Part shown: positions 15,741 to 24,101 of the stretch, piece after piece
Layout of the letters: each line of letters starts with the position of its first letter
Position numbering within the stretch: position 1 is the first letter of the stretch
Assembly: GCA_021205095.1 (NCBI GenBank)
Contig: JAJPYE010000061.1
Span: 1-33,797, forward strand
Direction of reading: 5' to 3'
Origin: Oscillospiraceae bacterium
GTDB taxonomy: Bacteria > Bacillota > Clostridia > Oscillospirales > Oscillospiraceae
Length of the DNA: 33,797 nt
Program-made: the position numbers and the translations under genes
Notes under the pieces: generated by a model
What the model was told of the DNA's origin: nothing
Database searches by the model: none
The model's input: only the letters and a program-made list of their open reading frames with translations

Positions 15741-16895
15741 TTATCGGTTCAGCAGCCGGGCCACCGGGGGCCGGTACACCTTCATGGCCCCCTTGGGGCA
15801 AAATTCCTGGCAGCAGAAGCAGTGGATGCACACCCCCCGGTCGATGTGGGGCAGTTTATTTTTCATGGTGATGGCCTTGGCCGGGCATATGTCGGCGCAC
15901 TTGCCGCAGCCAACGCACTGGTCAGCCGTCACCTTGGGTACGGCACTCAGGCACTTCTGGACAAATTTTCCCGCCAGCTTCTTCACCGGGCCGCGGCTTT
16001 CGTTCCAGAAAAGAATGTCGCTTTTCGTCCGCACGTTATGGAAGTCCTTCACCACCATGGACTCCAGATCCCCGGCTATATCCAGCTCCTGCCAGTGGGC
16101 GGGTATCAGCCCCCGCTCATAGGCAGCCTCCAGGGTCGGCACATCCTCCCGATCCAGGCCGATTAATTGGGCGCAGGCCAAATCGACGGCGTGGGGGGAT
16201 TTGGAAGCCAGCAGCAGCCCCATGGGCTTTGGGTCGCCCGCCGTGGGGCCGTTGCCGTCCATTCCAATCACTCCGTCCACAATGGACAGAGTGGGCCGGA
16301 AATACTCGTCCAGATCGATAATCATCCGGGCGAAGTCAGCCGGGTTGGGATATTTATAATGGTATTCCGGCTTCATCGTGCCGGGGATAACGCCGAACAT
16401 ATTCTTTGCGGCGGCGGAAAGGCCCATCATGCCGTGGCTTTTCAGCTTACAGAAATCAATCAGCACGTCGCAGTCATCCAGCCAGGCGGTATACTGAAAG
16501 GTCTTTGCCACCCTCCCCTCCGGGAAAACAGCCTGCTTCTGGCTGAAATCCATATTCAGCGCCGCGCCCGCCGCCTCCGTCTCATACATCCCCGTGGCCC
16601 GGTAGACGGTTTTCACATAGGCCGCCGTATACACACCGCCGGGGCTGTCCCCGATAACGGCGGAAGCGCCACGCTCCCGGATAAGCTCCGCCAGGGCCGA
16701 CAACAGCGCCGGATGAGTAGTGGCCGCCGCCTCCGGCTTTAAAAAGGCTACCAGATTGGCCTTTATCCCCACCCGCATACCGGGCTTTATAAAATCCAGT
16801 CCGCCGACAGGCTCCAGCACCTCTAAAAGCGCCTGACGGCACACCGCCGGGTCATAGCTTTCACAGCGGACAATGGACACCCGCGCCATGCTCAT
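15741..16895 (-). CDS. DUF362 protein with two C-terminal 4Fe-4S clusters
   Basis: A 384-residue protein: an N-terminal DUF362 domain (IKANLV, THPALLSALAELIRERG, GDSPGGVY, DVLIDFCKLKSHGMMGLSAAAKNMFG) followed by a bacterial ferredoxin-like domain with Cys 327/330/333/337 and Cys 356/359/362/366, each followed by Pro. The clusters suggest an electron-transfer role; the function of DUF362 is not established. Cytosolic, no signal peptide. GGGAGGGG lies 7 bases before ATG 16895. It shares a transcript with tatD, an association frequent in Clostridia but unexplained. The leader of about 110 bases contains no ORF. Confidence 0.9.
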   Translation of the reverse strand: MSMARVSIVRCESYDPAVCRQALLEVLEPVGGLDFIKPGMRVGIKANLVAFLKPEAAATTHPALLSALAELIRERGASAVIGDSPGGVYTAAYVKTVYRATGMYETEAAGAALNMDFSQKQAVFPEGRVAKTFQYTAWLDDCDVLIDFCKLKSHGMMGLSAAAKNMFGVIPGTMKPEYHYKYPNPADFARMIIDLDEYFRPTLSIVDGVIGMDGNGPTAGDPKPMGLLLASKSPHAVDLACAQLIGLDREDVPTLEAAYERGLIPAHWQELDIAGDLESMVVKDFHNVRTKSDILFWNESRGPVKKLAGKFVQKCLSAVPKVTADQCVGCGKCADICPAKAITMKNKLPHIDRGVCIHCFCCQEFCPKGAMKVYRPPVARLLNR

Positions 16896-18853: not shown

Positions 18854-18885
18854 AAAAGACGCCGTTTTGAACGGCGTCTTTTTTT
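18854..18885 (+). terminator. Intrinsic terminator after secG
   Basis: AAAAGACGCCGTT (18854-18866) pairs perfectly with AACGGCGTCTTTT (18870-18882) around a 3-base loop; the T run continues to about 18885. Confidence 0.95.
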
Positions 18886-18927: not shown

Positions 18928-18990
18928 AATACAGCATGAATAATAATGAGCGGTTTATCCGCCAGCGCGTTGAAGGAGATACAGTTCATC

Positions 18991-20241
18991 ATGGAAACCA
19001 AAAATGTAGTCATCGTAGATGCCTGCCGTACAGCCGTGGGCAAGATGGGCGGAGCCTGCCGTCCTTTGTCCGCCCTGGATATGGCCTGCGCCACCATCAA
19101 AGGGAACCTGGATCGCTCCGGCATTGACCCCAGCGAAATCGACGAGGTCATTCTGGGTCACTGCCGCCAGACCTCTGACGAGCCGAATATCGCCAGAGTG
19201 GCCGCGCTTAAGGTTGGTATCCCTGAAAAGTGCGCCGCCCACACGGTTATGCGCCAATGCGCTTCCGGCATGACCGCCGTGCAGAACGGCGCCATGAGCA
19301 TTATGGTCGGCGTAAACGATGTGGTCATCGCCGGCGGCACGGAGAGTATGTCCAACGCCGTCTTTTATGTGCGCAACGCCCGTTGGGGCGTAGGCACCGG
19401 CACCACTGAATTTGTAGACGCGCTGACCGAGGGCCAGTTCAAGAGCCAGCCGGAAGAGATTTATGGCCGCTATAATATGGGCGCTACCGCCGAGCGCGTG
19501 GCCCAGGAACTGGGCATTACCCGCGAGGAACAGGACGCTTTCTCACTGGAGAGCCAGCGCCGGGCCATCGCCGCCATTGATTCTGGCCGTTTTAAGGACG
19601 AGATCGTCCCCATGACCGTCCCCCAGGGCCGGAAGAAGGATCCCATCGTGTTCGACACAGACGAGTTCCCCAACCGCACCACCAACGAGGAGAAAATGGC
19701 CAAGCTCAAGCCTGTTTTCAGCATTGATGTCCATGACGACGGCAAAATGTTCAACTTTCCTTATCTGACCGGCACCGTTACCGCCGGTTCCTCCTCCGGG
19801 CGGAACGACGGCGCCTCCTCCCTGCTGCTGATGAGCGAGGAGAAGGCCAAGGAGCTTGGCCTCAAGCCTCTCGCAAAAATCATTGGCATGGGCGCTTCCG
19901 GCTGCGACCCCCAGCAGATGGGCCTCGGCCCCGTGTACGCCGTTCCCAAGGCACTGAAGCACGCCGGTCTTACCATGGACGACATCCAACTCATCGAGCT
20001 GAATGAAGCCTTTGCCGCCCAGAGCCTTGGTTGCATCAAACTCCTGGGCTGGGAGGATAAAATGGACATCATCAACGTAAACGGCGGCGCGATCGCCCTG
20101 GGCCACCCCGTCGGTTCTTCCGGCAGCCGCATCATCGTCACCCTGGTGCATGAGATGAAAAAGCGCGGCCTGAAATATGGCCTTGCCACCCTCTGCATCG
20201 CAGGCGGCATGGGCCAGGCAACGGTCATTGAAATGTGCTGA
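18991..20241 (+). CDS. Thiolase (acetyl-CoA acetyltransferase type)
   Basis: A 416-residue degradative/biosynthetic thiolase. The acyl-accepting Cys90 is in MRQCASGM, the catalytic His372 in GHPVGSSGSR and the second Cys402 in LCIAGGMGQA; NEAFAAQSL is also present. It interconverts acetoacetyl-CoA plus CoA and two acetyl-CoA. It is slightly longer than the usual 390-400 residues and has CIAGGMG where CxGGGxG is usual. ATG 18991 is chosen with GAAGGAGA about 11 bases upstream and the normal start KNVVIVDACRTAVGK. It is followed after 53 bases by the BKACE gene, so the acetoacetate-producing and acetoacetyl-CoA-using enzymes are paired. Confidence 0.94.
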   Translation: METKNVVIVDACRTAVGKMGGACRPLSALDMACATIKGNLDRSGIDPSEIDEVILGHCRQTSDEPNIARVAALKVGIPEKCAAHTVMRQCASGMTAVQNGAMSIMVGVNDVVIAGGTESMSNAVFYVRNARWGVGTGTTEFVDALTEGQFKSQPEEIYGRYNMGATAERVAQELGITREEQDAFSLESQRRAIAAIDSGRFKDEIVPMTVPQGRKKDPIVFDTDEFPNRTTNEEKMAKLKPVFSIDVHDDGKMFNFPYLTGTVTAGSSSGRNDGASSLLLMSEEKAKELGLKPLAKIIGMGASGCDPQQMGLGPVYAVPKALKHAGLTMDDIQLIELNEAFAAQSLGCIKLLGWEDKMDIINVNGGAIALGHPVGSSGSRIIVTLVHEMKKRGLKYGLATLCIAGGMGQATVIEMC

Positions 20242-20294
20242 TAAATGTGCTGATATTTATTAAATTTTAATACTTATATAAGAGGGTAGAGATT

Positions 20295-21221
20295 ATGTCT
20301 AAGTCCAACAAAATTATTATTCAGGCCTGCCTTTGCGGGGCTGGCACCAAGAAGTCCCAGGCTCCTACGGTTCCTTATACACCGGAGGAGATCGCCCGCC
20401 AGGTGGTAGCCGTGGCCCAAGCCGGCGCTTCCATCGCCCACATCCACGTCCGTGAGGACAAAATGGTGGACGGCGAAATGCAGATTGGCTACAAGTCCAT
20501 GAGCCTGCAAATGTTCACCGAGACGGTGGAGTTGTCCCGCAAGTACTGCAAGGAGGCCGGGGTTGACATTCTGATTAACCTGACCACCTCCGGCGGAGAG
20601 TATGAGGACGTAAAGCGTCTTCAGCACCTGGGTGCGCTCAAGCCGGAAATGTGTTCCTTCGACCCCAACACCATAAACTGGTCCAACAGCTACATCTTCG
20701 AGAACCACCCCCGCTTCCTGAACCTGCTGGCTCAGGAGGTCGTCAAAACCGGCGTGAAGCCGGAGTTTGAGGTGTTCGACACCGGCCATATCGACTCCGT
20801 CATGTACTATGTGAACAAGTGGAACATCCCCCAGCCGCCCCACATCCAGTTCATCATGGGCGTCGGCGGCTCCGCCCCCGGTACCGCCCAGTCCCTGGCC
20901 TGGATGGTAGATCACCTGCCCGAAGGCGCTACCTGGTCTGTCTCCGGCATTGGCAAGGCCCATATGCCTATGATGCTGGCCGGTCTGGCCCTTGGCTGCG
21001 ACGGCCTGCGGGTGGGCCTGGAGGACAACATCCTCTACGGCAAGGAGCCTGACGGCAAGAAGATTATCGCCACCAACGTCATGCTGGTGGAGCGGGCCGT
21101 GGAGCTGGCCCAGATCGCCGGTCGCACCATCGCCACGGCGGACGACGCCCGCGAGATTCTTGGCATCACCCGCCACTGCCTGCGGGACGGCAAGACCGAA
21201 CCGGTCTCCATTTCCCTGTAA
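20295..21221 (+). CDS. Beta-keto-acid cleavage enzyme (BKACE, Kce family), substrate unknown
   Basis: A 308-residue TIM-barrel enzyme of the former DUF849 family. BKACEs condense a beta-keto acid with acetyl-CoA and cleave it to acetoacetate and a new acyl-CoA, using Zn. The metal pair His49/His51 (IAHIHVRE), the Arg239 and Glu243-Asp244 of LRVGLEDN and the MGVGGSAPGT segment match positions shown to be catalytic in Kce. It is longer than the roughly 275 residues usual for Kce, and its substrate-loop segments (for example TINWSNSYIFENHPRF) look unlike lysine-pathway Kce as I remember it. No other lysine-fermentation gene is present. Dehydrocarnitine or another beta-keto acid is equally possible. 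AAGAGGG precedes the ATG. A strong terminator follows. Confidence 0.92.
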   Translation: MSKSNKIIIQACLCGAGTKKSQAPTVPYTPEEIARQVVAVAQAGASIAHIHVREDKMVDGEMQIGYKSMSLQMFTETVELSRKYCKEAGVDILINLTTSGGEYEDVKRLQHLGALKPEMCSFDPNTINWSNSYIFENHPRFLNLLAQEVVKTGVKPEFEVFDTGHIDSVMYYVNKWNIPQPPHIQFIMGVGGSAPGTAQSLAWMVDHLPEGATWSVSGIGKAHMPMMLAGLALGCDGLRVGLEDNILYGKEPDGKKIIATNVMLVERAVELAQIAGRTIATADDAREILGITRHCLRDGKTEPVSISL

Positions 21222-21240
21222 TTTAATTTGCAAAAACGCA

Positions 21241-21275
21241 CCGCGTCTGCTATCATCTTAGCAGACGCGGTTTTC
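21241..21275 (+). terminator. Strong terminator between BKACE and thioesterase
   Basis: CCGCGTCTGCTA (21241-21252) pairs perfectly with TAGCAGACGCGG (21259-21270) around TCATCT, followed by TTTTCTATT. The 12-bp stem should stop most transcripts from the thiolase promoter before the thioesterase gene 36 bases further on. Confidence 0.92.
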
Positions 21276-21310
21276 TATTATATGATATAAAGATTTTATG
21301 AGGTGAGCAT

Positions 21311-21724
21311 ATGACTGAAACAATCATACAGGTGCGCTATCCCGACCTTGACCCCATGGGCATTGTCCATCACGCCGTCTATCCCATCTGGTATGAGATG
21401 GCCCGGATGGAGCTTTTGCAAAACGCCAGTTTCCCCTGGCCTAAACAGCACGAGCTGGGCATTGACCCGGTGATGGTCAGCCTGAACCTGGAATACCTGG
21501 CCCCCGTCCGCTACCCCGGCGAGGTGGTAATAAAATCCCAAATCATCCTGGCCGAGCCGAAAAAGCTGAAAATACGCTACGAGTGCTTCTCCGAAAACGG
21601 CGCCGTCTGCAACAACCGCGCCGAAAGCTTCCACATCTGGTGCCGGGACATGAAAAGCCTGAACCTCCAGGAAGCCGAGCCGGAAATCTTCGCCGGATTG
21701 GTTGAGGCAATTGAGAATTTCTAA
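21311..21724 (+). CDS. Hot-dog acyl-CoA thioesterase (4HBT family)
   Basis: A single-domain 137-residue hot-dog protein: VRYPDLDPMGIVHHAVYPIWYEMARMELL carries the family active-site motif, with Asp12/Asp14 and the following Gly-Ile-Val-His. It hydrolyses an acyl-CoA to the acid and CoA. Directly after a BKACE it may release the acid from the acyl-CoA that BKACE makes, as betainyl-CoA thioesterases do in carnitine breakdown (inference). GAGGTGA lies before the ATG. A strong terminator separates it from BKACE, so its expression is probably lower or from a promoter in the AT-rich stretch 21271-21300. It ends 2 bases from the convergent lysR stop. Confidence 0.9.
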   Translation: MTETIIQVRYPDLDPMGIVHHAVYPIWYEMARMELLQNASFPWPKQHELGIDPVMVSLNLEYLAPVRYPGEVVIKSQIILAEPKKLKIRYECFSENGAVCNNRAESFHIWCRDMKSLNLQEAEPEIFAGLVEAIENF

Positions 21725-21726
21725 GC

Positions 21727-22629
21727 TTAAATCTCCTTCCAAATATTCCCCAGTCCCTCCTGCAGCTCGGGCAGTAGAGGATTGCCTTGTCCCTTGGGTG
21801 CCAGAAACGCCAGACGAAGGCGGGCATATTCTGTCGGGAGCGGCAGTGTTTGCAGGCGGGGATTTGCCAGCTTTGCCACCACCGAGGCAGGGAGGATGGC
21901 AGCGCTCTCGCCGGTCTCGATGGTTGTGGTCATATCTTCCAGACTTTCGCAAAAGCGAATCTGTGGCTCCAAGGCCAGGTCGCTTAGAATGCGAATAATA
22001 TGATACAGCCCTTGCGGTTCCCTGTCAACAAGGATAAGACCCCGATTCATGATAATATCGGCATGATCGCCGTCCCGGTGTGTGTTCCCGCTGCGGAAAG
22101 CAAGCAGCATCTCCTCCCCGCCCAAAATGGTTTGAGAAATGTCGCTCTTTGGCTCCATTTCCCTGTCCAATACCAGGGCACAGTCCAGCGTATGAGCGGA
22201 AAGCCCCTTTATCAGCTTCTGATATTCCTGCGTGTGCAGAAGAATACGTATGCCGGGATGACGCCGCCGCATTGCATACAGAAACTCGGTCACAGCCAGT
22301 CGTCTGTCGGGATTTGCCAGGGCGCGGGAATCTGTTCCAATGGAGAGCGTATGGCCCGCATTCGCATCCGGCGCAGCGTCCCGCACCTCTGGAAGGAGCT
22401 TTTCCCAGCGGGAAATCAAATCCTTGGCGCTGGCACGCAGGGCGCGGCCCGCTTCTGTCAGCTCCACCTTCCGGGTAGTGCGGGTAAACAGGGGCAGGCC
22501 CACCTCCTGCTCAAGCTCCATGATCTGCCGTGACAGCGCCGATTGGGACAGATAGACACTGTCCGCTGCCCGGCTGAAATTCAGCGTGTCCGCCACAGCG
22601 ATAAAATACCGAAGCTGCCGTATTTCCAT
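21727..22629 (-). CDS. LysR-family transcriptional regulator of the acyl-CoA cluster
   Basis: A complete 300-residue LysR protein: HTH at about 1-60 (MEIRQLRYFIAVADTLNFSR, SVYLSQSALSRQI, EVGLPLFTRTTRKVELTEAG) and an effector-binding domain to the end. ATG 22629 is chosen since GGAGG lies 10 bases before it; the longer frame runs through the promoter. It is divergent from the CoA-transferase gene with a dyad in the shared gap, and convergent with the thioesterase gene. It probably activates the CoA-transferase and represses itself, in the usual LysR way, with an acid or CoA-ester effector (inference). Confidence 0.93.
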   Translation of the reverse strand: MEIRQLRYFIAVADTLNFSRAADSVYLSQSALSRQIMELEQEVGLPLFTRTTRKVELTEAGRALRASAKDLISRWEKLLPEVRDAAPDANAGHTLSIGTDSRALANPDRRLAVTEFLYAMRRRHPGIRILLHTQEYQKLIKGLSAHTLDCALVLDREMEPKSDISQTILGGEEMLLAFRSGNTHRDGDHADIIMNRGLILVDREPQGLYHIIRILSDLALEPQIRFCESLEDMTTTIETGESAAILPASVVAKLANPRLQTLPLPTEYARLRLAFLAPKGQGNPLLPELQEGLGNIWKEI

Positions 22630-22650
22630 AAGTGCATCGCCTCCGCTATA

Positions 22651-22679
22651 AACATACCAGATCCTAGCATTAAAAACAA
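22651..22679 (-). promoter_or_regulatory. Promoter of lysR
   Basis: On the minus strand TTGTTT (22674-22679), a 17-base spacer and TATGTT (22651-22656). The -35 box touches the first arm of the dyad at 22678, so a bound regulator would block it. Confidence 0.55.
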
Positions 22680-22712
22680 GAAGATTTATGCACCAAAAGC
22701 ATAAATCTTCTT
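22678..22712. promoter_or_regulatory. Candidate LysR operator: perfect 14-bp inverted repeat
   Basis: AAGAAGATTTATGC (22678-22691) and GCATAAATCTTCTT (22699-22712) are exact reverse complements around a 7-base centre. The core ATGC-N7-GCAT contains T-N11-A, the LysR half-site rule. Its centre (22695) lies about 66 bases before the predicted CoA-transferase start site (about 22761), the classic LysR recognition-site position, and it overlaps the lysR -35. Confidence 0.65.
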
Positions 22713-22725
22713 TTCTCATGTGGAA

Positions 22726-22754
22726 TTGAGATTGCGAAAGGGCAGTTTTATAAG
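22726..22754 (+). promoter_or_regulatory. Promoter of the CoA-transferase gene
   Basis: TTGAGA (22726-22731), a 17-base spacer and TATAAG (22749-22754), about 36 bases before the ATG. Confidence 0.6.
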
Positions 22755-22790
22755 CTAAGATGAAGCCAGAAAAAACAGGGAGGCTTCACC

Positions 22791-24101
22791 ATGAACCAGT
22801 CTTTGCAGGCGCTGTATAATGAGAAAAAACGTACTATTGGGGAGATATTATCCACCATCCGCTCTGGGGATGTTATATTCACTACCAACAACTATTCCGA
22901 GCCAGCAGAAATTCTCTCCCATCTCCATGAAATAGCCCCTCAGGTGGAGGATGTAAAGGTCTGGAAGGGACGTTCCGGCCCTTTTCCCTTTATGGTAGAC
23001 CCCAGCATGAAGGGGCATATTGAGATGTATACCTATTTTTTCGGCCCCACGTTCTACCGCAACTCCAAGCCAATGGGGCTGGTAGACTTTGTGCCGGCAG
23101 ACTTGGCCAGCTATTTTACCGTGGCGGTGTCCGGCCATCCGGCCAATGTGAACATCGCAGCCGTCACTCCCATGGACGAAAACGGCAACTTCCATCTGCC
23201 CATGAACAATGCGGCAGACGGCCTCGCCATGCTGGATGCGGTGGAAAGACACAAGACCGTTATTCTGGAAGTAAACCCTAACCTCCACAAAATGCACGGA
23301 GCTGTGACTATCAATATCCAAGATGTAACCATGCTGACCGAGGTAGACCGACCGGAATTTATTCTTCAATCCATAGAACCGACGGCGCTGGAACGGCAGA
23401 TAGGTCAGGCCGTAGCGGAACTGGTACACGACGGGGACACCATTCAGCTCGGCATCGGCGGGATTCCCAACGCAGTGGGGATGTTTTTAAAGGAAAAGCA
23501 TGACCTGGGGATTCATTCGGAGATGTTCACCACCTCCATGATGGAGCTTATCCAGGCCGGAGCAGTCACCGGACGGAAAAAGACCTATGATAAAGGCCTG
23601 CACGTCTGCGCCTTCGCCGAGGGGACAAAAGAGCTGTATTCCTTCCTCCAATCCAGGGAGGACTGCGTCATTCGTGCCGGGGCTGAGGTAGTAGACCCTT
23701 TCAACATTGCCCGACAGGAGAACATGGTGTCTATTAACACTCTGGTGGAGATAGACCTGACTGGCCAGGTGTGCGCGGAGTCTGTAGGGCCAAAGCAAAT
23801 ATCCGGCTCAGGCGGCAGCTTCTGCTTTGCCTATGGCGCTTACCGTTCCAGAGGCGGCAGGAGCATACTTGCTTTCCCCTCTCGCACCGGCAAGGGCAAA
23901 AGCAAAATTTCCGCCAGCCTGACCCCTGGCGCTGTTGTCACCGTGCCGAGAAATTATGTAGATTATGTTGTCACGGAGTACGGCACAGCCCATTTGAAGG
24001 GCGCAACAATCTCCGAACGGGCCAGTCAGCTCATAGCCATCGCCCATCCCGACGACCGCCCCGCCCTGACCGAGCAGGCAAGAGCGTTGCAAATTCTATA
24101 A
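22791..24101 (+). CDS. Acetyl-CoA hydrolase/transferase-family CoA-transferase (Cat/AbfT type)
   Basis: A 436-residue CoA-transferase related to 4-hydroxybutyrate and butyryl-CoA:acetate CoA-transferases. LGIGGIPNAV (oxyanion loop, about 220-229) and the catalytic Glu244 in LGIHSEMF are present, as are IDLTGQV, DYVVTEYGTAHLKG and IAHPDDRPAL. The enzyme moves CoA between two carboxylic acids through a glutamyl-CoA intermediate. Where family members usually have GGQ-x-DF, this one has GGSFCF (341-346), so acid specificity may differ. In context it could give CoA to acetoacetate for the thiolase, or recover CoA from the BKACE product. The AGGGAGG site precedes ATG 22791. It ends 5 bases from the convergent MFS stop. 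Confidence 0.9.
   Translation: MNQSLQALYNEKKRTIGEILSTIRSGDVIFTTNNYSEPAEILSHLHEIAPQVEDVKVWKGRSGPFPFMVDPSMKGHIEMYTYFFGPTFYRNSKPMGLVDFVPADLASYFTVAVSGHPANVNIAAVTPMDENGNFHLPMNNAADGLAMLDAVERHKTVILEVNPNLHKMHGAVTINIQDVTMLTEVDRPEFILQSIEPTALERQIGQAVAELVHDGDTIQLGIGGIPNAVGMFLKEKHDLGIHSEMFTTSMMELIQAGAVTGRKKTYDKGLHVCAFAEGTKELYSFLQSREDCVIRAGAEVVDPFNIARQENMVSINTLVEIDLTGQVCAESVGPKQISGSGGSFCFAYGAYRSRGGRSILAFPSRTGKGKSKISASLTPGAVVTVPRNYVDYVVTEYGTAHLKGATISERASQLIAIAHPDDRPALTEQARALQIL

Follow-up and report, generated by a model that had tools for sequence, protein, structure and literature searches.

What does the BKACE encoded in an Oscillospiraceae genome act on, and which of the genes around it belong to the same pathway? 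The window, the whole stretch of DNA that was analyzed, comprises 33,797 nt of contig JAJPYE010000061.1 (Oscillospiraceae bacterium, GCA_021205095.1), and the genes studied occupy positions 18991..24101. An earlier note described a thiolase, BKACE, thioesterase, LysR regulator, and CoA-transferase there as one compact cluster; all five genes were found as described (Table 1). Our main reading, which we hold at roughly two chances in three, is that the thiolase-BKACE operon carries out the final two reactions of an anaerobic ring cleavage of the phloroglucinol type, with the other genes located elsewhere in the genome. Two of the five genes would then probably help a gut bacterium to ferment phloroglucinol, a phenol of plant origin released from tannins, and the route to acetate and butyrate would be unlike the one studied in the laboratory so far.

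Table 1. Features of the thiolase-BKACE region, in window positions
Feature	Position	Strand	Evidence or remark
Terminator-like hairpin ending secG	18854..18882	+	13-pair stem, then T run
Acetyl-CoA C-acyltransferase (thiolase)	18991..20241	+	PF00108/PF02803, TIGR01930
BKACE	20295..21221	+	PF05853, 266 bits, 308 aa
Rho-independent terminator of the thiolase-BKACE operon	21240..21271	+	Perfect 13-pair stem with T tail
4HBT (YbgC/MenI-like) thioesterase	21311..21724	+	PF03061/PF13279
LysR-type regulator	21727..22629	-	PF00126/PF03466; divergent from CoA-transferase
Palindrome TTATGC-N7-GCATAA	22686..22704	.	Perfect, ATGC-N7-GCAT form; between LysR and CoA-transferase
Single-chain family I CoA-transferase	22791..24101	+	PF13336; 4-hydroxybutyrate/butyrate-acetate type

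BKACE orthologues and their gene neighborhoods

The window BKACE keeps the Zn ligands H49, H51, and E243, which showed no variation across the 76 rows that make up the five groups counted. Its Gly17 occupies the position of Glu14 in Kce and Trp16 in CsTAL of Clostridium scatologenes. Across 57 close rows this position held Gly in 55 and Ala in two, while all four rows of a separate Trp-type set (set A) held Trp; these four were picked after the Trp motif had been seen, and one of them (L127) has no cyclase match beside it. A fifth row in the set A clade, L074, also has Trp and lies outside the four-row count. In the phylogeny, from which short fragments and one stop-containing row (L128) were left out, the BKACE belonged to a clade (support 98/86) distinct from the rows of Trp type, of Val type, and of Kce. 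A residue rule is suggested, in which BKACE subgroups are separated by whether a single position holds Glu, Trp, Gly, or Val.

Gene neighborhoods were counted at 65 close orthologue loci, with 14 of the 79 fetched named loci (31-52% identity) excluded; genes starting within 8 kb were included, and because contigs were often cut, the counts are lower bounds. A thiolase was present at at least 43 loci, a 3-hydroxyacid dehydrogenase at at least 41, and a PF04199 cyclase at at least 40, followed by CtfA (at least 36), CtfB (at least 33), MerR (at least 31), and an SDR gene (at least 25). The small subunit of a transhydroxylase-like Mo enzyme was found at at least 24 of the 65 loci and the large subunit at at least 15, and this enzyme adjoins the BKACE in L011, L051, and L062, among other relatives. 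An acetate/butyrate-kinase-family gene occurred at one locus (L010). We refer to the transhydroxylase-like Mo enzyme, SDR, cyclase, dehydrogenase, Gly-type BKACE, and CtfAB as set B.

This gene content is that of the C. scatologenes phloroglucinol pathway (PGR, DPGC, TfD, TAL), and on that correspondence we read the BKACE as likely being a triacetate acetoacetate-lyase with 3,5-dioxohexanoate as its substrate, of a Gly type and not of the C. scatologenes type. The suggestion in the earlier note that BKACE and thiolase chemistry yields acetoacetate plus an acyl-CoA is a sensible reading. Its view of the substrate as unknown and the route as undescribed finds no support here: relatives place the BKACE in a phloroglucinol-type set, and its own genome holds candidates for the rest elsewhere. 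Against the curated 3,5-dioxohexanoate model NF053538 the BKACE scored 143.3 bits (cut-off, 430), and none of 120 family genomes passed that cut-off.

BKACE and cyclase also occurred in the same genomes. At cut-offs of 64% (BKACE) and 70% (cyclase), which were chosen by the author, and with fragments counted, 30 of the 120 family genomes carried the BKACE and 31 the cyclase; both were present in 28, the BKACE alone in two, the cyclase alone in three, and neither in 87 (Fisher p 1e-21, a value that ignores shared ancestry among the 120 genomes from 106 genera). The two genes shared a contig in 18 of the 28 genomes. A phylum-wide search (398 genomes, E 1e-40) detected the set B cyclase in none beyond its own genome. 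The carriers of set B are gut Oscillospiraceae, many of them from herbivores by record title.

Candidate genes for the remaining steps and the proposed ring

Elsewhere in the genome, contig C22 encodes a cyclase, a dehydrogenase, CtfAB, MerR, and a symporter, without a BKACE. The C22 dehydrogenase is 78% identical to that of orthologue locus L019. In the cyclase of this contig, Trp35 and Phe37 correspond to the published DPGC residues Trp20 and Tyr22. Two different transhydroxylase-like enzymes are encoded, on contigs C26 and C17. In L051, the gene immediately upstream of thiolase-BKACE encodes a Mo enzyme with 93% identity to the C26 protein. The latter also gives a nearly full-length match (694 bits) to the pyrogallol hydroxytransferase of Pelobacter acidigallici, with conservation of His144, Asp174, and Tyr404, which we take to be the key residues of pyrogallol transhydroxylase. 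With the in-cluster SDR of L019 as the query, 12 places in the genome were found; the SDR on contig C32 aligned in two pieces (41% and 49%) and was not the best single match. This C32 SDR shares 76-77% identity with the SDRs of L056 and L122, the former, at 76%, from a complete cluster, and 40-46% with the next ten listed. Its assignment as a candidate phloroglucinol reductase is weak.

Under the main reading, gallate or pyrogallol would be converted to phloroglucinol by the transhydroxylase-like Mo enzyme (C26, with a second on C17), and phloroglucinol to dihydrophloroglucinol by an SDR, the best candidate being that on C32. The PF04199 cyclohydrolase of C22 would open the ring to give 3-hydroxy-5-oxohexanoate, from which the C22 3-hydroxyacid dehydrogenase would form 3,5-dioxohexanoate. 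The window BKACE would then act on 3,5-dioxohexanoate and acetyl-CoA, producing acetoacetate and acetoacetyl-CoA; CtfAB (C22) would activate the acetoacetate, and the window thiolase would convert acetoacetyl-CoA to acetyl-CoA, leading to acetate and butyrate. The analysis itself establishes the gene families, their conserved linkage and co-occurrence, the operon border, the clade, and the active-site residues; from these we infer all of the reactions in the organism itself, as well as the identity of the ring. Tannin and flavonoid breakdown converge on phloroglucinol, and the fermentation products are acetate and butyrate (PMC10470551). If the main reading is true, about a quarter of the sampled family genomes (30/120) ferment tannin-derived phenols via this version.

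Several observations count against the main reading. The genome studied here carries an intact cyclase set on C22, to which the BKACE is unlinked; the BKACE has no counterpart of the CsTAL Trp and lies below the NF053538 cut-off; the SDR assignment is weak; and the Trp-type set is present in the same family and stands beside set B in 14 of 31 genomes, a redundancy if phloroglucinol were the substrate of both. It is conceivable, although we think it unlikely, that set B is a second, paralogous pathway on a non-phloroglucinol phenol, with a final 3-keto acid that exceeds 3,5-dioxohexanoate in size; if so, the retention of set A by those 14 carriers would be because set B acts on another phenol. 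Framed around the ring, this alternative is rather doubtful: the architecture would be the same, and some other reduced phenol, such as one with substituents or a different hydroxylation pattern made by the transhydroxylase-like enzyme, would supply a longer 3-keto acid to a roomier Gly-type BKACE. The presence of Gly or Ala, and not Trp or Glu, in 57/57 close BKACE rows is consistent with this, as are the co-occurrence of sets A and B, the low identity between them (28% for cyclases and 33% for dehydrogenases), a dehydrogenase Ser-His spacing one residue off the published one (20 versus 21), and the two different transhydroxylase-like enzymes in the genome. However, set B consists of the kinds of enzyme that make up the phloroglucinol route, its cyclase retains the DPGC Trp, and phloroglucinol is the product of the solved protein most closely related to the Mo enzyme.

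Operon borders and the neighboring genes

Thiolase and BKACE constitute an operon of two genes that ends at a strong terminator. The secG hairpin is its upstream border, and the hairpin after the BKACE folds at -26.2 kcal/mol (z -6.5), with 0/200 shuffles equally good. The thiolase, which scored 462 bits against TIGR01930 (cut-off, 240.6), starts at an RBS-preceded ATG, the mechanical open reading frame beginning at 18946. The thioesterase gene and the divergent LysR/CoA-transferase pair lie outside this operon and are separate, optional units. At locus L006, whose BKACE is 98% identical, the thioesterase gene leads directly to an MFS gene, without LysR or CoA-transferase, and the thioesterase cluster was seen at nine of the 65 orthologue loci, five of these being near-identical relatives.

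These layouts bear on the route proposed earlier, in which thiolase, BKACE, thioesterase, and CoA-transferase would be self-contained, controlled by LysR, and directed at an unknown beta-keto acid. The five genes are indeed adjacent, and L030, L039, and L054, which are more distantly related, likewise have a thioesterase gene after the BKACE. Yet the terminator and the L006 arrangement contradict a single functional unit and lend no support to the thioesterase and CoA-transferase as integral parts, a separate CtfAB is present on C22, and none of the five genes encodes a dehydrogenase to make the beta-keto acid, so that we give this route little probability. Solved relatives of the CoA-transferase are topped by 4-hydroxybutyrate CoA-transferases, and its TIGR03948 score of 248 bits lies below the cut-off of 675. 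The mechanical LysR reading frame extends to 22719. The palindrome between the two genes is the sole exact match to its pattern in the window and has what we take to be a form of LysR-type operator, making it a putative operator. Base composition (G+C 0.50-0.60) gave no sign of a foreign insert.

A carnitine-type system, with dehydrocarnitine cleavage and a thioesterase acting on the acyl-CoA, is very improbable. The thioesterase gene does stand beside the BKACE, and among NCBIfam models a C32 dehydrogenase matches L-carnitine dehydrogenase best (193 bits), but that score is under the cut-off of 414, the thioesterase gene lies beyond the terminator and at few loci, and this carnitine-dehydrogenase-like gene pairs with another BKACE, also on C32, which led us to reject the system. 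That the BKACE is the Kce of lysine fermentation is scarcely credible: the Kce model NF052387 is its best NCBIfam match (237.7 bits) and a Kce chain its best PDB match, but we rejected this reading on the score, which is under the cut-off of 382, and on the Gly at the Glu14 position, and the orthologues sit with cyclase and SDR genes.

The earlier note had correctly separated the BKACE from Kce and noted its greater length (308 aa versus 267 model positions). As to the grouping with Kce and the kam/kdd/kal genes that it had named as grounds for refutation, the BKACE did not group with Kce in the tree, where the Kce branch is long and its exact place unsure, and lysine aminomutase PF09043 had no match in the genome, a model that was also silent in all 14 control genomes. 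Curated models do not name the set B version, the best BKACE match being Kce under its cut-off and the cyclase having no NCBIfam match.

Comparison with known systems

The window BKACE has in common with Kce the fold family, Zn ligands, and active-site Arg and Asp, whose roles at the BKACE active site we assume. It differs in failing the Kce model cut-off and in missing Glu14, which binds the 5-amino group according to PMC10470551. Among the papers listed, the names of the lyase and the cyclohydrolase were found together only in PMC10470551, and no other description was recognized.

Judged from alignment, the C26 protein resembles the P. acidigallici pyrogallol-phloroglucinol transhydroxylase (PDB 4v4c) and may share its activity. 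The small subunit combines 4Fe-4S and carboxypeptidase-regulatory-like domains, as in the P. acidigallici system. Unlike the BKACE-adjacent Mo enzyme of relatives, the C26 enzyme is encoded apart from the BKACE.

The same enzyme kinds as in set B have been assayed in C. scatologenes as CsPGR, CsDPGC, CsTfD, and CsTAL (PMC10470551). The comparison was made through published residues. Shared families are the SDR, PF04199 cyclase, 3HCDH-type dehydrogenase, and BKACE, plus thiolase and CtfAB, and set B keeps the HxGTHxDxP-type motif in its cyclase and the catalytic Ser, His, and Asn in its dehydrogenase. We considered whether set B was simply the C. scatologenes set and dropped this once the separate set A, with the published Trp20/Tyr22 and Trp residues, was found in the same family, beside set B; a set A gene row is also present in Acetoanaerobium noterae. 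The residue numbering of set A agrees exactly with the published one for the cyclase alone, the dehydrogenase numbers being shifted with the same spacing and the BKACE Trp standing at 18 or 14 instead of 16. Every set B protein is of a different lineage from its counterpart in the C. scatologenes-like set A, with 28-33% identity for cyclase, dehydrogenase, and SDR. Relative to C. scatologenes, its cyclase keeps the CsDPGC Trp with Phe in place of Tyr22, its BKACE has Gly in place of the CsTAL Trp, it is often linked to a transhydroxylase-like Mo enzyme, and in the genome studied here its parts are spread over several contigs.

Predicted transcription units around the window BKACE

The five genes named in the earlier note, a thiolase, a BKACE, a thioesterase, a LysR regulator and a CoA-transferase, were all found in the window, with the places and families claimed. 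They do not form a single unit, however; because a terminator follows the BKACE, and because LysR and the CoA-transferase are missing in L006, a locus with a BKACE 98% identical to that of the window, the firm unit is the thiolase and BKACE only (spacing of 53 bp). None of 200 shuffles folded as well as the hairpin closing this pair, and the thioesterase starts 39 bp past it. LysR and the CoA-transferase are a divergent pair, with an exact TTATGC-N7-GCATAA palindrome, a putative LysR operator, in the gap. We infer at least three transcription units for the five genes. Elsewhere in the window (15741-16895), a gene for a DUF362 protein with 4Fe-4S domains neighbors that of a MATE transporter; nothing visible links it to the BKACE operon.

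Genes and terminator-like hairpins of the BKACE region
Feature	Position	Strand	Fold (kcal/mol)
Terminator-like hairpin ending secG, upstream of thiolase	18854-18882		
Thiolase	18991-20241	+	
BKACE	20295-21221	+	
Perfect hairpin, 13 pairs and T tail, closing thiolase-BKACE	21240-21271		-26.2
Thioesterase	21311-21724	+	
LysR	21727-22629	-	
CoA-transferase	22791-24101	+	

BKACE neighborhoods and co-occurrence in relatives

A BKACE scan of bacterial genomes gave 79 loci, and neighbors (genes whose start lies no more than 8 kb from the BKACE) were counted in the 65 with a close orthologue, which omits 14 loci at 31-52% BKACE identity. Many contigs end early, so that all counts are lower bounds. Most prevalent were a thiolase (at least 43 of 65 loci), a 3-hydroxyacyl-CoA-dehydrogenase-like protein (at least 41) and a PF04199 cyclase (at least 40), with CtfA in at least 36, CtfB in at least 33, a MerR regulator in at least 31 and an SDR in at least 25. 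A pyrogallol-transhydroxylase-like Mo enzyme was represented by its small subunit in at least 24 loci and its large subunit in at least 15. Locus L019 reads Mo enzyme, thiolase, SDR, MerR, cyclase, dehydrogenase, BKACE, CtfAB, symporter; L011 and L062 have the Mo enzyme, thiolase and BKACE in that order, followed by molybdenum-cofactor genes (products assigned from sequence). The L010 stretch holds an acetate/butyrate-kinase-family gene. Locus L070, from Lachnospiraceae, has two BKACE and two thiolase genes on its contig, and a CoA-transferase encoded on the opposite strand (L070:2262-3557) is 33% identical to that of the window.

We term the window-type genes set B and the C. scatologenes-like ring-cleavage genes set A. 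Across 120 genomes of the same family, close orthologues of the BKACE (≥64% identity) and the set B cyclase (≥70%) occurred in 30 and 31, respectively; 28 genomes had both, 2 the BKACE only, 3 the cyclase only and 87 neither (Fisher p = 1e-21, without correction for ancestry). Both genes share one contig in 18 of the 28, and two of the three cyclase-only genomes have a sister-group BKACE (51-54% identity) instead. The set A cyclase was present in 23 genomes, 14 with the set B cyclase and 9 with set A only; 17, including the genome under study, had set B only. None of the 120 passed NF053538, the NCBIfam 3,5-dioxohexanoate model, and set A genomes therefore fail it too.

Candidate pathway parts elsewhere in the genome

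The proposed ring-cleavage pathway looks complete but dispersed. The genome comprises 66 contigs, of which the window makes up C7 in its entirety, and has two BKACE genes, one of them in the window. Contig C22 encodes MerR, the cyclase, the dehydrogenase, CtfA and CtfB together with a sodium:solute symporter, and this stretch contains no BKACE gene. Both subunits of a Mo enzyme are encoded on C26. The large one shares 93% identity with its L051 counterpart, which lies directly upstream of thiolase-BKACE. Along almost its whole length, the C26 large subunit aligns with P. acidigallici pyrogallol hydroxytransferase (694 bits), and it keeps the key residues His144, Asp174 and Tyr404. A second, related Mo enzyme is on C17. 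The L019 SDR matched 12 places in the genome; the C32 SDR aligned to it in two pieces (41% and 49%) and was not the best single match, but we favor C32 as the candidate reductase locus because the SDR there shares 76% identity with the only SDR of that group in the L056 cluster. Small conserved genes (~150, 154-180, 100 and 171 aa) adjoin the transhydroxylase-like enzyme on C26 (L094:8957-10890) and in L011:2878-4896; one has a NUDIX domain and the other three have no Pfam match.

The second BKACE, on C32 (L003:5503-9010), has 336 aa and Val at the position of Glu14 in Kce, the BKACE of lysine fermentation; its neighbors are a carnitine-dehydrogenase-like gene, the SDR and a MarR regulator. 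Relatives of it in L116, L117 and L119 adjoin enoyl-CoA-hydratase- and 3-hydroxybutyryl-CoA-dehydrogenase-like genes (Pfam checked for L116), and this type is predicted from sequence to be part of a different BKACE pathway. Contig C40 (L096:2414-5812) has two closely similar adjacent HpaB/4-hydroxybutyryl-CoA dehydratase-type genes beside SDR genes, the second with Pfam HpaB_N and HpaB confirmed, and L117 has a gene resembling them beside its C32-type BKACE. The CoA-transferase of the window, which is related to 4-hydroxybutyrate CoA-transferases, might work with these enzymes.

Set B and the phloroglucinol pathway

Passages of PMC10470551 describe C. scatologenes PGR (SDR), DPGC (cyclase family), TfD (3-hydroxyacid dehydrogenase) and TAL (BKACE), which convert phloroglucinol to acetoacetate and acetoacetyl-CoA, with thiolase and CoA-transferase next. 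Among the papers searched, the lyase and cyclohydrolase names were found only there. Judged by title and abstract start, the matches listed for phloroglucinol, pyrogallol and BKACE held no other description; the PMC10470551 supplementary tables may list set B without commenting on it. The PMC12203004 passages on PGR and transhydroxylase treat these as two routes in catechin-amended microcosms, with no mention of a second gene set.

The set A row (SDR, dehydrogenase, cyclase, BKACE) occurs in the same family (for instance in L110 and L111) and in a named Acetoanaerobium noterae record (L133; NZ_CP154629.1), a 2.6-Mb record filed as a plasmid whose gene table has no annotated feature for the row. 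In the set A cyclase, Trp20 and Tyr22 stand at the very positions given for CsDPGC (3/3 sequences); the dehydrogenase keeps the catalytic Ser/His/Asn spacing of CsTfD (21 and 51 residues; 2/2, numbers shifted); and the BKACE, like CsTAL, carries Trp where Kce has Glu14 (4/4 rows), at residue 18 or 14 rather than 16. Because of these matches, set A is assigned to the C. scatologenes type, as judged against the residues published for its enzymes. Set B is only 28% (cyclase), 33% (dehydrogenase) and 30% (SDR) identical to set A. Its cyclase has Trp and Phe at the Trp20/Tyr22 positions (2/2 aligned), the Ser/His/Asn residues of its dehydrogenase are spaced by 20 and 51 (2/2), and its BKACE has Gly (55 of 57 rows) or Ala (2) at the Glu14 position. 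The window BKACE falls in a 66-row clade (98/86) separate from set A, the C32 type and Kce. A small cupin gene (L075:8253-8609 and cluster members) recurs beside clusters of both sets (for instance L110, L043 and L056).

Two facts above all cast doubt on a phloroglucinol route: some genomes carry both sets, and the sets diverge at the BKACE residue thought to set substrate choice. The ring opened by set B may therefore be another one, which we consider unlikely. The simplest account, at a probability of roughly two in three on these sequence comparisons, is that set B represents another phloroglucinol-route lineage, with a frequent link to pyrogallol and, through it, to gallate and tannins. 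The window operon would supply two of its enzymes, the BKACE acting as lyase and the thiolase as thiolase of the same route. In relatives, window-type BKACE genes adjoin the same gene content as that of the C. scatologenes phloroglucinol pathway.
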